A DNA stretch of 52,326 nucleotides, from NCBI GenBank assembly GCA_021777215.1, contig JAJYDS010000008.1, positions 1 to 52,326 on the forward strand, written 5' to 3'. The notes below the pieces were generated by a model, which saw only the letters and a list, made by a program, of their open reading frames with translations, was not told the DNA's origin and made no database searches. Below are positions 5,214-16,988 of this stretch, piece by piece (the first letter of the stretch is position 1; each line of letters starts with the position of its first letter). Origin of the DNA: a bacterium (GTDB taxonomy: Bacteria; Babelota; Babeliae; Babelales; Vermiphilaceae). The position numbers and the translations under genes are program-made.

Positions 5214-6371
5214 ATGCGCCACTTTTCAAGCTTGTTACCTTGTTATTTCACCTTCGTTCCTATGCATCCATTGTTGATCGCAACACTTTTTTTAATCCTC
5301 GGAATAGGTTGGCAATCATGGCTGCAACACTCTTGGTTTATCATAGGCACAGTGATTCTCATGCTAATAACAGCCCTTTCTTTATACACACAAAAAACAC
5401 GGTATCTTTTCTTTTTTACTACCTTTGTTCTTGGCGGACTACTCTACACAAAACAACACACTGACCATAATAAAATTTTTCTCTCATTTGCCAATAAACC
5501 TCTAGCCTGTATTGCCACGGTCATCTCCGAAGAAAAAAGATCTGACAATTCCCGTATCAAACAGATGCTTATAATCCAAATTGAAAAAATATATCCCCAT
5601 ACGCCGAAACCTGGCCACTGGTATACAGCAAACGCCTACATACAAATGTATCTTGCTCAGCCAACTAATGCAGTACCAGGGGATACTTTGGCTATAACCG
5701 GAATAAGCATAAAAAAAGCTCCCAATGAATCATTTGAAAGATATCTTATCAAAGAAGGATTTGCCGCATCGATATGCCTGCCTCAACTACATGCTATACT
5801 TCTTTCTCGCCCTCAACTGAACATACGCCGTACATTGTGGGCTCTTAAAACAGACCTTCTTTATCGCATAAAAGAAAAACTTTCTTCAAAAACATTTGCT
5901 CTATTTTCTTCGATTTTTCTCGGAAATAAACAAATGGTTAAAAAAGAAATGAATACCATAAAAGACTATTATAAAACTTGGGGCATCTCTCATCATCTTG
6001 CTCGATCAGGACTTCATTTAGTTATCTTTATTGCTCTTTGGGGTCTATTGCTTAATCTCCTAGCGCTCCCCTTTATGCTAAAGCAGCTTACACTCCTCTT
6101 TATCTGTTTCCTCTATTTTCTCCTGAGTTGGACTTCTATCTCTTTTATGCGTGCATTTTTTACTTTTATTTTGTATAAAACATGCACATTCTCAAAAATT
6201 TCCTCAAATACGGTACACATACTCAGCATTGTCACTTTCATAACACTCATTTGTAATCCCAGCCAGCTCTTTTTTTTAGATTTTCAGCTAAGTTTTGGAC
6301 TCACGGGCGCCCTCGCCTGGTTTAATCTCATTCTGCAGACACAAAAAAGAGTTTTAGGCCAAAACTGTTGA
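5214..6371 (+). CDS. ComEC/Rec2-family membrane protein lacking the metallo-beta-lactamase domain
   Basis: A 385-residue polytopic membrane protein. Four N-terminal hydrophobic helices are followed by a soluble OB-like region (about 85-200), then the ComEC competence core from about residue 255 (GISHHLARSGLHLVIFIALW) with further membrane helices. ComEC forms the inner-membrane channel for DNA uptake in natural transformation. Full-length members are about 700-800 residues and end in a nuclease-like beta-lactamase fold. This one stops inside the competence domain, so that part is missing. The reading frame is clean, and the end is a normal TGA at 6369-6371. An alternative start lies at Met17. 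No clear ribosome binding site is seen at either. Confidence 0.8.
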   Translation: MRHFSSLLPCYFTFVPMHPLLIATLFLILGIGWQSWLQHSWFIIGTVILMLITALSLYTQKTRYLFFFTTFVLGGLLYTKQHTDHNKIFLSFANKPLACIATVISEEKRSDNSRIKQMLIIQIEKIYPHTPKPGHWYTANAYIQMYLAQPTNAVPGDTLAITGISIKKAPNESFERYLIKEGFAASICLPQLHAILLSRPQLNIRRTLWALKTDLLYRIKEKLSSKTFALFSSIFLGNKQMVKKEMNTIKDYYKTWGISHHLARSGLHLVIFIALWGLLLNLLALPFMLKQLTLLFICFLYFLLSWTSISFMRAFFTFILYKTCTFSKISSNTVHILSIVTFITLICNPSQLFFLDFQLSFGLTGALAWFNLILQTQKRVLGQNC

Positions 6372-8020: not shown

Positions 8021-8593
8021 ATGGATTCAATCACGTATAAAAAACAACTATTAGAACAATTATATGCCCCCTATAAACAGTGTGTACACTGCCCTTTGGG
8101 CAAGCTAGGACGCACACATGTTGTCTTTGGCGAGGGAAATCCCAACGCATCCCTCATGTTTATTGGCGAGGCTCCCGGACAAGAAGAAGATATGCAAGCC
8201 CGCCCATTTGTTGGCCGCTCAGGAAAACTACTCACCCGCGCACTAGAAGCATTCGGCATCTCCCGTGAACAAGTTTTTATTACCAATATTGTCAAATGTC
8301 GTCCACCCAACAATAGAAAACCACTCCCGGGCGAAAGCAAAACATGCAAAAATTTATTGCTTTTAAAGCAAATAAAAATTGTAAAACCTCGAGTCATTTG
8401 CACCCTCGGAGCCGCAGCACTTGAAGGCCTATTAGAAAAAGAAGTAAAAATTTCACAAACTCGGGGAAAGGCTATTGTTTTTGATTCGATCACGCTTGTC
8501 CCAACATACCATCCAGCCTACATTTTGAGAAACCCAAAAGAACTGAAAACTCTCATAAAAGACATTGAACTTGCCCTAAGCCTTACACAATGA
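8021..8593 (+). CDS. Family 4 (Fe-S) uracil-DNA glycosylase
   Basis: A 190-residue enzyme that excises uracil from DNA to start base-excision repair. Motif A reads GEAPGQEED (residues 49-57) and the C-terminal motif HPAYILRNP follows at about 166-174. Four cysteines (21, 24, 93 and 109) fit the 4Fe-4S cluster of family 4 enzymes (CVHC, KCRPP, CK). Length is typical. The start has AGAGAGAA upstream. Many older annotations call this family a phage SPO1 DNA polymerase-related protein. It sits directly left of the origin-like repeat block. Confidence 0.93.
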
Positions 8594-8610: not shown

Positions 8611-8657
8611 GTGGTGGATAACTTGGTGGATAACCTGGTGGATAAGTGGTGGATAAC
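8611..8657 (-). repeat. Left arm: four DnaA-box-like repeats
   Basis: Four GGTGGATAA units with periods of 12, 12 and 11 bp. The linkers give modules GGTGGATAACTT, GGTGGATAACCT, GGTGGATAAGT and GGTGGATAAC, in that order. Confidence 0.9.
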
Positions 8658-8751
8658 CAAAAACACCCCATGAATACAAGCCATCAATCGCACAATAAAA
8701 AATGATCTGTCGCCTATCCGAATCCAGACGGCGTTTCGAGAGGCCAAAAAA

Positions 8752-8798
8752 GTTATCCACCAAGTTATCCACCACTTATCCACCAGGTTATCCACCAC
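8752..8798 (+). repeat. Right arm: four DnaA-box-like repeats
   Basis: Four TTATCCACC units with periods of 12, 11 and 12 bp. Read on the minus strand the modules are the same four as in the left arm but in the order second, third, first, fourth. The arm is therefore a permuted, not a simple, inverted copy. A lone ninth unit follows at 8855-8863. Confidence 0.9.
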
Positions 8799-9010
8799 CC
8801 CACAAGATCAATTTTGCGCGCAAAATAAAGTCTTTTTTGGGCAAACAAAAAAAGTTATCCACCAAAAATCGCTCCATCTATTATTATTATATTCTCCATA
8901 TATAACTAAAACAGAATAATAGAAAAAGCAAAAAGGGAAGATTTTGAGGTTGTTCGATAGAGATGAAAACAAAAAATACCAGACCCCGAGCTTTTCTTTC
9001 CCCTCTTTTT

Positions 9011-9060: not shown

Positions 9061-10152
9061 GTGAAACTTTCAGAGGTAATTGAAGAATTAGTTGAAGAGC
9101 GAGGGCTGGACAGAGAGCTTTTGAGCGATATTATTCGCGAAGGCATGCTTGCCGCCTATCAAAAAAAATACCCTGAACTCAACCTTAAGGCAACGTATGA
9201 GCCGCAAACTGACGAGATTACAATCAGTGTTGAAAAAAGAGTTGTGGTCGCAGTAGAAGATGATGCTTGTCAGTTGAGCCTTAAAAAAGCAAAAAACTTG
9301 AATAAAAATGCTGAGATTGACGATCTGATGTGGGTTCCTTTTGAGGGGCCTATTGGTCGCATTGAAGTGCTTCGCGCTCGTCAGGTTATTGCCAGCAAGA
9401 TCCGCTCTCTAGAGTCTGCAGCTGTTTACAATGAATTTAAAGAGAAAGAGGGCTCTATCATCCATGGTGTTATTCACAAATGCGAGTTGGGAGGTACTGC
9501 CGTCAAGCTTGATGACAGTATGGGTTTTTTGCCAAAATCTCTTTCGATTCCCGGAGACAAGTGTGCGGTTGGGTATCCGATTAAGGTATTGCTCAAAGAG
9601 GTTTTGCCTGAGCCTCGACACGAGAATCAACTCATTTTAGACCGGTCTTCGGAGCTTTTTTTACAGCGTCTTTTTGAGCTTGAGATTCCTGAGGTTTTTG
9701 AAAAGCTTGTAGAGGTTAAAGGAATTGCCCGTGTGCCAGGATACAAGTCGAAGATTGCTGTTGTTTCCAATGACACCAATATTGATCCGGTAGGAACTTG
9801 CGTTGGTGTCGGCGGTAGCCGCATTAAGCCTATTCTTAAAGAATTGGGCGGTGAAAAAATCGATGTGATAGCTTGGAGTGCCAATCGTGAAACTTTTATA
9901 AAGGACGCGTTAAAGCCCGCTGAAATTGAGCGCGTTGAAATGATCGATGCCACAGCTGCACAGGTCTGGTTGGCAGAGGAGCAACGTTCTTTGGCTATTG
10001 GCAAAATGGGACAAAATATTTCTCTTGCAGCCAAACTCACCGGCGTGTCAATCCAATTGGCTCAACGTGCTGAAGGTGAAAAAAAAGAGGTTGCCTTTGA
10101 GGAGCGGGAGCTTTCTGAATCTAATCATAACGGCGAAGACGTGCACGAGTAA
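9061..10152 (+). CDS. nusA: Transcription termination/antitermination factor NusA
   Basis: The 363-residue protein contains the NusA N-terminal RNA polymerase-binding domain (about 1-125, opening KLSEVIEELVEERGLDRELL), an S1 domain (about 130-200) and two KH domains. The KH signature is seen in GTCVGVGGSRIKPILKEL. It binds elongating RNA polymerase and modulates pausing, termination and antitermination. It ends in an acidic tail without the C-terminal AR repeats of enterobacterial NusA, as in many other phyla. The start is GTG 9061 with AGGGGA at 9051-9056. rimP, the usual upstream neighbour, is absent, and infB follows after 89 nt. Confidence 0.95.
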   Translation: MKLSEVIEELVEERGLDRELLSDIIREGMLAAYQKKYPELNLKATYEPQTDEITISVEKRVVVAVEDDACQLSLKKAKNLNKNAEIDDLMWVPFEGPIGRIEVLRARQVIASKIRSLESAAVYNEFKEKEGSIIHGVIHKCELGGTAVKLDDSMGFLPKSLSIPGDKCAVGYPIKVLLKEVLPEPRHENQLILDRSSELFLQRLFELEIPEVFEKLVEVKGIARVPGYKSKIAVVSNDTNIDPVGTCVGVGGSRIKPILKELGGEKIDVIAWSANRETFIKDALKPAEIERVEMIDATAAQVWLAEEQRSLAIGKMGQNISLAAKLTGVSIQLAQRAEGEKKEVAFEERELSESNHNGEDVHE

Positions 10153-14978: not shown

Positions 14979-16988
14979 ATGAAAAAGATTCCTGGCATCC
15001 AGCGGGTATTGCGTCAGGTTTTTATGTGCAGTTGTTTTTTTGCAGCTTCCCAGCTCCGTGCAGATGCTATAAAAGACGCCTTGTTAGCACCTCCTACTTC
15101 AGATTTGCTTTGGAACTATGCCGGTACCTTTAGACCTGAAATGTTTTATGGCAAAAATATAAGTTTGCTGAATAATTGCAATCCCGAAGACCGCATTTGG
15201 TATATGAAGCATACACTTGATTTAGTGTTGGCTCTCGCATACGGTGCTAAGAGTTACGGAAAAACGGTAGCAGATTTAAAAATTACGTGGCGTAATAAAG
15301 CTATTTGGGGTGATCCTTATAGTATTGCTGCCACAACGCTTGATACGACCAAAGTTCTTGATTATGTAATGCCGCCACACAATCATGCCATACCACGTCT
15401 TTTTAATTGGATGCGGGAGATATGGTTGCGGTTTGATTTGGCTCAAGCTCTCGGTTTATCATGCGCGAATCAACATACTTTCATGGCGGGTATTTTCCCC
15501 TTTCAATTGGGTCGCGGCATTGCGCTTGGTGATGCATATGCGGTAGGACCTGATCCTCTTGGCTTTTATACTGATTTTATTGTTGACCAGTATGCGCCGG
15601 GATTAAAATTTTCAGGTGATATTGTTGCTAAAAAACTCGCATATGATTTATACGTAGCAATTCTTAATAATCGCTCTGATGATTTACGGTGGACTGGTGA
15701 ACGAATTCGTGCGCAAGAAATTGGTCGTATGGATAAGCCAGAACGTGGTTTTGGTGTAGTTAACTATATCGTAGCTGGTCATCTTAATTGGCAAGTTTTT
15801 GATACAAAAAAAATGGGAAAATTGAGTTTAGAACCATATTGGCTTTTCAATAGTGATCCTGAACAACGTGTTATTTTTTTAAGTGACGCACAAAGCAAAT
15901 TAGCTACATTAGGTTTTGCGGGCGAATATGTAGGGGATCTCTTTGAATGCGGTTTCGATACCGCTGCAAATATTGGTCATCAACGGGTCAAAGGAATTGA
16001 TCGCAATACTATACAAGCAGAAAACAGAAATGGTTGCTTTGTGTTTGTCAATAGTCATGTGCGTGCTGGAGCAGCCAATGGACCAAAAATTCTTTTTGTT
16101 ACTGGAGATGATTCAAAGCCGGGCACTGCTCAATATCTTATTACCCAGCAGCGGTTGAGTGAGCATATTGGCGAGAATTTGGAGATGGAAAATGGTAAAT
16201 GTATTGGTATGGCAAAAACAGCGGTCTGTTGTTGCGATACTCCGACCGATGTAACTCTGTTTAATGCAAGCAATCGCTATCGCGATGGATATATTAACAA
16301 ATATGAAGGATGGATGTTTGTCGCTGATTTGGCTGTGTGGCTGTATAAAAAAGATCTAAGGTTTGCGACAATGGCAGGTATTGCCTCAGGTGATGATGAT
16401 CCAAATTTTGAAACTAAAGATGGTAATTATAAGGGGTTTATTGGATTGCAAGAAATTTATTCAGGAAAAAGGGTGCGTAGTGCATTTGTTCTTGGCGGTG
16501 CGGGTAAATTACGTCGCCCTATGGCCTTGCCAATTGGTAATCAAGCACCACGCCAATTTGCCATTAATGTTTCTCGTTTTAGTGATTTAGTATTTGGTGG
16601 CATAGGGCTAAATTGGAAACCTACCGATTGGGAAAAAACTTTTGCCTTTAACCCAAATGTGCTTGTCTACTGGGAAGAAAAACCAACTAAATGTTTTAAT
16701 TTAGCTACAAAAAAAGATGATCCACTCAAATTGGCCAACACTTATCTAGGATTGGAAGCTAACTTGTTTGTTGATTACTTTATCTTACGAGATTTGCGTT
16801 TCTTTTTAGTCACCTCCTTCTTCTTTCCTGGTAGACACTTTTCTGATATTCGGGGTAAGCCAATTGATGATATTCAGCTGCGCAGGTTAGATAGACTTGA
16901 TCGTTCTGGCTTCAATCAGTCACGTATCCCAAATATTGGGGATAATATTGCCTATACCTTTAACGTTGGCTGTGAATTCAAATTCTAG
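14979..16988 (+). CDS. Predicted outer-membrane beta-barrel protein, family not recognised
   Basis: The 669-residue protein begins with a Sec-type signal peptide (basic MKKIPGIQRVLRQ, a hydrophobic stretch and a likely cut after QLRADA, about residue 30). It ends in the aromatic-terminal beta-strand pattern of barrels (NVGCEFKF, last residue Phe). The body is rich in alternating hydrophobic strands and Gly/Asn turns. It has a Cys cluster (AVCCCD, about residue 413) that is unusual for outer-membrane proteins. I recognise no enzyme motif. AAAGGA precedes the ATG. Porin or carbohydrate-type channel is the most reasonable guess, possibly lineage-specific. Confidence 0.7.
   Translation: MKKIPGIQRVLRQVFMCSCFFAASQLRADAIKDALLAPPTSDLLWNYAGTFRPEMFYGKNISLLNNCNPEDRIWYMKHTLDLVLALAYGAKSYGKTVADLKITWRNKAIWGDPYSIAATTLDTTKVLDYVMPPHNHAIPRLFNWMREIWLRFDLAQALGLSCANQHTFMAGIFPFQLGRGIALGDAYAVGPDPLGFYTDFIVDQYAPGLKFSGDIVAKKLAYDLYVAILNNRSDDLRWTGERIRAQEIGRMDKPERGFGVVNYIVAGHLNWQVFDTKKMGKLSLEPYWLFNSDPEQRVIFLSDAQSKLATLGFAGEYVGDLFECGFDTAANIGHQRVKGIDRNTIQAENRNGCFVFVNSHVRAGAANGPKILFVTGDDSKPGTAQYLITQQRLSEHIGENLEMENGKCIGMAKTAVCCCDTPTDVTLFNASNRYRDGYINKYEGWMFVADLAVWLYKKDLRFATMAGIASGDDDPNFETKDGNYKGFIGLQEIYSGKRVRSAFVLGGAGKLRRPMALPIGNQAPRQFAINVSRFSDLVFGGIGLNWKPTDWEKTFAFNPNVLVYWEEKPTKCFNLATKKDDPLKLANTYLGLEANLFVDYFILRDLRFFLVTSFFFPGRHFSDIRGKPIDDIQLRRLDRLDRSGFNQSRIPNIGDNIAYTFNVGCEFKF

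Follow-up and report, generated by a model that had tools for sequence, protein, structure and literature searches.

A block of inverted repeats directly upstream of nusA is almost certainly the replication origin (oriC) of the Dependentiae lineage from which the 52,326-nucleotide stretch analysed here (the window) derives. This reading draws on the concentration of nine DnaA-box-like repeats at one block, which holds more than half of the copies in the genome, on the sign change of the GC skew at the same place, here and in the sampled turns of two complete genomes, and on a layout common to relatives that includes a DnaA-trio-like motif. Across the phylum, the letters of the box covary with residues of DnaA domain IV, and it is likely that initiator specificity and origin were repeatedly rewritten together.

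A box block upstream of nusA

The host was assigned to Candidatus Dependentiae/Babeliales by a search with NusA. Nine exact copies of TTATCCACC occur in the window, all within 251 bp (8613-8863, Table 1), with four on the minus strand (starts 8613, 8625, 8637 and 8648) and five on the plus strand (starts 8753, 8765, 8776, 8788 and 8855), just as the first-pass annotation had counted them. Dinucleotide shuffles of the whole window yielded a mean of 0.34 copies and a largest count of three, with nine or more in 0 of 100 shuffles. Genome-wide, the draft assembly (1,197,282 bases, 43 contigs) includes 16 exact copies, the seven outside the block being found one each on seven contigs. The left and right arrays are inverted copies of one another, with arms of 34 nt that are fully complementary, and position 9 is a C in all nine boxes instead of the A found in the canonical E. 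coli R box TTATNCACA. An AT-rich tract had likewise been reported beside the boxes, and indeed A+T reaches 77% at 8864-8945 and 85% at 8879-8926, vs. 55% over the arrays. The window also contains a DnaA-trio-like arrangement, i.e., a box followed by a 0-16 bp spacer and at least three NAN trios (box 8855-8863, 14 bp, CTA TTA TTA TTA). These trio-like repeats after the lone box are absent from the first-pass annotation, as are the lineage-specificity of the last C of the box and its covariation with DnaA.

Table 1. Coordinates of the repeat block and its neighbouring genes in the window.
Feature	Coordinates	Strand	Remark
Uracil-DNA glycosylase family 4, upstream neighbour	8021..8593	+	
Left array: four TTATCCACC boxes, spacing 12, 12, 11	8613..8656	-	
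Central spacer, 96 bp, separating the oppositely oriented arrays	8657..8752		Length of ~100 bp also kept in relatives
Right array: four TTATCCACC boxes, spacing 12, 11, 12	8753..8796	+	
Lone box, 67 bp past the last array box	8855..8863	+	In 48 origins of the phylum, 66-68 bp separate the last two plus boxes
14-bp spacer, lone box to trio-like repeats	8864..8877		
DnaA-trio-like run CTA TTA TTA TTA; complement 3'-GAT-AAT-AAT-AAT-5'	8878..8889		Trio rule, PMC8287927
AT-rich presumed unwinding element, 77% A+T, core 85%	8864..8945		Holds the cumulative GC-skew minimum (8912)
nusA, downstream neighbour, then infB	9061..10152	+	TIGR01953, E 3.7e-97

Elsewhere in the window, a 669-aa open frame (14979-16988, plus strand) has no NCBIfam or Pfam match, and a ComEC-like protein of 385 aa (5214-6371, plus strand), which may be truncated, has a Competence domain match near its C-terminus.

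The cumulative GC skew of the window is lowest at 8912, a position within the AT-rich flank, and the skew calculated over 2-kb windows is negative from position 1 to ~8,900 and positive for nearly all of the remainder. Skew in the rest of the host genome was sampled by stretches of the 43-contig draft, with partial coverage: no second minus-to-plus switch was seen in ~40 sampled pieces, and the pieces on other contigs were each single-signed (two small ones near zero) with the exception of C14, on which the skew passes from plus to minus at ~65-78 kb (C14:65001-78418, L422), the presumed replication terminus. The dnaA gene sits on a different contig (C41:16882, Bac_DnaA E 1.3e-67), within a stretch of uniformly positive GC skew, and its domain IV, downstream on C41, matches E. 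coli 1j1v. No box cluster was found in the 3.5 kb surrounding dnaA, which hold a single near-match (TTATCCACA at C41:18135).

Overall, the block combines a box cluster beyond chance expectation, a skew minimum, an AT-rich element, a DnaA encoded in the same genome and a position conserved in relatives, and it lies away from dnaA, beside which a classical dnaA-linked origin is located. An oriC adjoining nusA rather than dnaA is what the first-pass annotation had proposed, naming three observations that would speak against it: a distant skew minimum, absence of the block next to nusA in close relatives, or a stronger box cluster beside dnaA. None of these was made when skew, relatives and dnaA were checked, and the proposal is thus supported.

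Layout of the probable origin across the phylum and in complete genomes

Our survey covered 101 genomes of the phylum (77 genera, 19 families), with 80 origins scored. Most genomes with readable DNA upstream of nusA share one design, in which a minus-strand array, ~100 bp, a plus-strand array and a lone plus-strand box ~67 bp further on are followed after ~14 bp by the DnaA-trio-like CTATTATTATTA, the AT-rich tract and then nusA, and the skew of these relatives turns from negative to positive. At least four repeated boxes were found upstream of nusA in 73 of the 82 genomes having both DnaA and origin data. Successive boxes are spaced by 11 bp in 316 of 366 cases across the phylum, and by 12 bp in 47. 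The motif TATTA[ATC]TA starts no more than 26 nt past the lone box in 47 of 80 origins, vs. 2.8% of shuffled tails, and its offset from this box is 14 or 15 in 39 origins. The strict trio pattern is absent from the other 33 of the 80 origins, many of which carry CTACTACTA-like runs. For uncultured Dependentiae, this offers an origin-finding rule, namely to search upstream of nusA.

In six genomes (G101, G117, G032, G033, G055 and G059), the searched box form was not repeated beside nusA; in most of them the boxes are degenerate or rewritten, and none is visible in G059. The latter genome has a frame-broken dnaA domain IV fragment directly upstream of nusA, at the expected site of the block (L288, C12 7140-7342), and its full dnaA sits on a different contig. 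Several arrays depart from the common form in other ways: the left array of G122 (L211) is expanded, with many TTATCCACC copies following one another head to tail every 11 bp and an assembly gap (25 boxes counted in 800 bp), and two box forms alternate within one array in G120/G121 (L052, TTATGCACC and TTATCAACC) and in G064 (L063, TTATCCACA and TTATCCCCA), possibly as strong and weak sites. A record labelled Melioribacter roseus (L046/L113) has a Dependentiae origin-nusA contig, and its bin (3.6 Mb) is probably mixed. At the dnaA locus, a conserved gene with the motif DPHxxNFxxEKxTxKIxIIDTEHFP (L122, minus strand, with homologues in L114-L133) adjoins dnaA in ~12 relatives.

Two complete genomes, presumed to be those of Chromulinavorax destructans (G046, 1,174,272 bp) and Babela massiliensis (G026, 1,118,422 bp), have dnaA near coordinate 1 and the block near 652 kb, where it is bracketed by the turn of the sampled skew in both. 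In G046, the block lies at 651.7 kb and nusA at ~652.1 kb, with negative skew over 160-608 kb and positive skew from 660 kb on. The oriC predicted for C. destructans SeV1 from skew and boxes (651641-652233 of 1,174,272 bp, PMC6561590) coincides with this position, and hence corresponds to the nusA-side block, the identity of G046 being presumed. The available passages of that paper name the box TTATCCACA, whereas G046 mixes TTATCCACA, TTATCCACC and TTATCCCCA, and these passages make no mention of nusA linkage, arrays, trios or DnaA co-variation. In G026, the nusA block lies at 651.6-652.3 kb, and the sampled skew, mostly negative over 110-648 kb, is positive from 653 kb onward and stays so past the end of the sequence up to 60 kb. 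A single origin located 152 nt upstream of dnaA had been claimed for B. massiliensis from GC skew (PMC4378268). This published position seems wrong, since the sampled skew bottoms out between 648 and 653 kb, where the nusA block lies, and the search of the first 3 kb of G026 revealed no box.

Homology with characterized initiators suggests how DnaA may bind, extend and unwind the DNA at a block whose anatomy, skew, conservation and covariation are observed here. DnaA, encoded on C41, would fill the two oppositely oriented arrays, in which the 11-12 bp phasing would bring neighbouring molecules to roughly the same side of the helix. From the lone box, at its fixed distance of 67 bp, a DnaA-ATP filament may then grow over the trio-like repeats (8878-8889), upon which the AT-rich flank would melt and admit helicases, and forks departing both ways would generate the skew flip. 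The C at position 9 of the box, instead of A, would be read by the Arg423 of this lineage.

Box letters and DnaA domain IV

DnaA and its box are usually regarded as nearly invariant. In this phylum, box types differ by lineage, with TTATCCACC in the family of the window, TTATCCACA in other families, mixtures of TTATCCACC and TTATCCACA, and further types TTATCAACA, TTATCGACA, TTATGAACA, and TTATGCACC accompanied by TTATCAACC. The covariation set comprised 73 genomes, each having a DnaA domain IV and four or more repeated boxes, and left out L046/L113; residues are numbered as in E. coli DnaA, using a sequence whose domain IV agrees with 1j1v. Boxes were recognized by TTAT, and those entering the main table also had to have a C in position 8 and either A or C in positions 7 and 9; counts with the last five letters left free give the same picture.

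Boxes with C9 occur in 33 of 36 genomes with Arg423 vs. 1 of 37 without it. Among the former, genomes combining Arg423 with Arg432 have mostly C9, and those combining it with Lys432 have mixtures. Similarly, CC at positions 5-6 is found in 63 of 65 genomes with Asp433 vs. none of the eight (from five families) without it. The DnaA of the window's lineage has GGRDH together with Arg423, and Asn433 accompanies the TTATCAACA and TTATGAACA boxes. The exceptions are G049 (Ser423, some C9), G072 and G079 (Asp433 without CC) and three Arg423 genomes without C9. When all 70 domain IV columns were scanned with no prior choice, the best-ranked column was residue 423 for position 9 (|r| 0.85, vs. 0.58 for the runner-up) and residue 433 for CC at positions 5-6 (0.81 vs. 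0.43). Residue 432 alone was rejected as the setter of position 9, as R432 without R423 gives A9, and no clean partner residue was found for the variation at position 7 (TTATCCCCA in G064 and a few members of family f5). A change at position 8 was seen in a single genome (G117; L197 upstream of nusA, L332 for DnaA domain IV), in which the boxes are TTCTCCAAC/TTATCCAAC, with A at this position, the array geometry is kept and DnaA carries T436C.

In E. coli DnaA, residues 423 and 432-435 contact bases (PMC5043019), and a review describes a van der Waals contact to the thymine opposite box position 9 (PMC6727663). It is thus plausible that the guanine opposite C9 is read by Arg423 (Pro423 in E. 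coli). More broadly, we favour a scenario in which Dependentiae repeatedly rewrote initiator specificity and origin together, with residue 423 setting position 9, residue 433 (with 432) setting positions 5-6 and, once, residue 436 setting position 8, on a frozen geometry.

The oriC could be correctly placed and the correlation between box and DnaA still reflect shared ancestry and drift, with no recognition code. Both traits are indeed common to related genomes, and an independent-pairs test, underpowered on its own, pointed in the same direction as the main counts with too few pairs for significance. However, the switches recur in several families, traits simulated under an Mk model on a NusA tree (one quick tree) reached the observed association in 0 of 5000 runs for 423 and 0 of 5000 for 433, and the top two of the 70 columns are both known base-contacting residues. 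We therefore regard ancestry and drift as an unlikely source of the association.

The same covariation, together with the skew, led us to reject two readings in which the block is not an origin. Clusters of DnaA boxes outside oriC occur in other bacteria, and a block directly upstream of nusA-infB might be a (datA-like) titration or regulatory cluster, or a DnaA-controlled nusA promoter, with replication starting elsewhere. This is very improbable given a skew minimum within the block, a turn on which the complete genomes agree, and an AT-rich trio-like element at a fixed distance after the boxes. The genome as sampled showed neither a second minus-to-plus switch nor another cluster of boxes. 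The inverted arrays could also be taken for an RNA hairpin that serves the nusA operon as leader or terminator, and the predicted transcript fold is strong (z -7.5). Yet both arms consist of units of 11-12 bp in tandem, whose spacers are permuted, the window has no Rfam match, and a hairpin would leave the tracking of DnaA residues by box letters unexplained, such that we give this reading hardly any credence.

Comparison with known systems

As an oriC, the nusA-side block resembles that of E. coli, in which closely spaced DnaA sites form two arrays of opposite orientation (Rozgaja et al., 2011, cited in PMC6727663). In the E. coli origin, weak sites are guided by a few strong ones, whereas the arrays of the window consist of near-identical consensus-type boxes, and the window block has in addition a separate lone box on the DUE side. 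The likeness to the basal unwinding system of B. subtilis lies on this side. That system comprises a DnaA-box, a spacer of up to 16 bp (commonly 10-13) and at least three NAN trios starting with 3'-GAT-5' (PMC6669920, PMC8287927; Dependentiae are not mentioned in the latter). The window presents the same order of box, 14-bp spacer and trios, as read from its sequence, but without a second adjacent consensus box.

No precedent for DnaA-box co-evolution was found in the literature searched, in which subscription papers were thinly covered. The closest comparison is with the Epsilonproteobacteria, where class-specific box letters were attributed to variation in domain IV, with residues 435 and 438-439 proposed, 423 judged unlikely, and the determinant of box specificity in divergent bacteria not settled (PMC5043019). 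In contrast, the signal in Dependentiae resides in residues 423 and 433, and the switches recur inside one phylum. With a fixed origin geometry on which box and recognition residues switched jointly several times, this phylum represents a natural mutational series for initiator recognition; if our interpretation is true, DnaA would have an amino-acid-to-base code that can be read, and mutually exclusive initiator/origin pairs would become possible.
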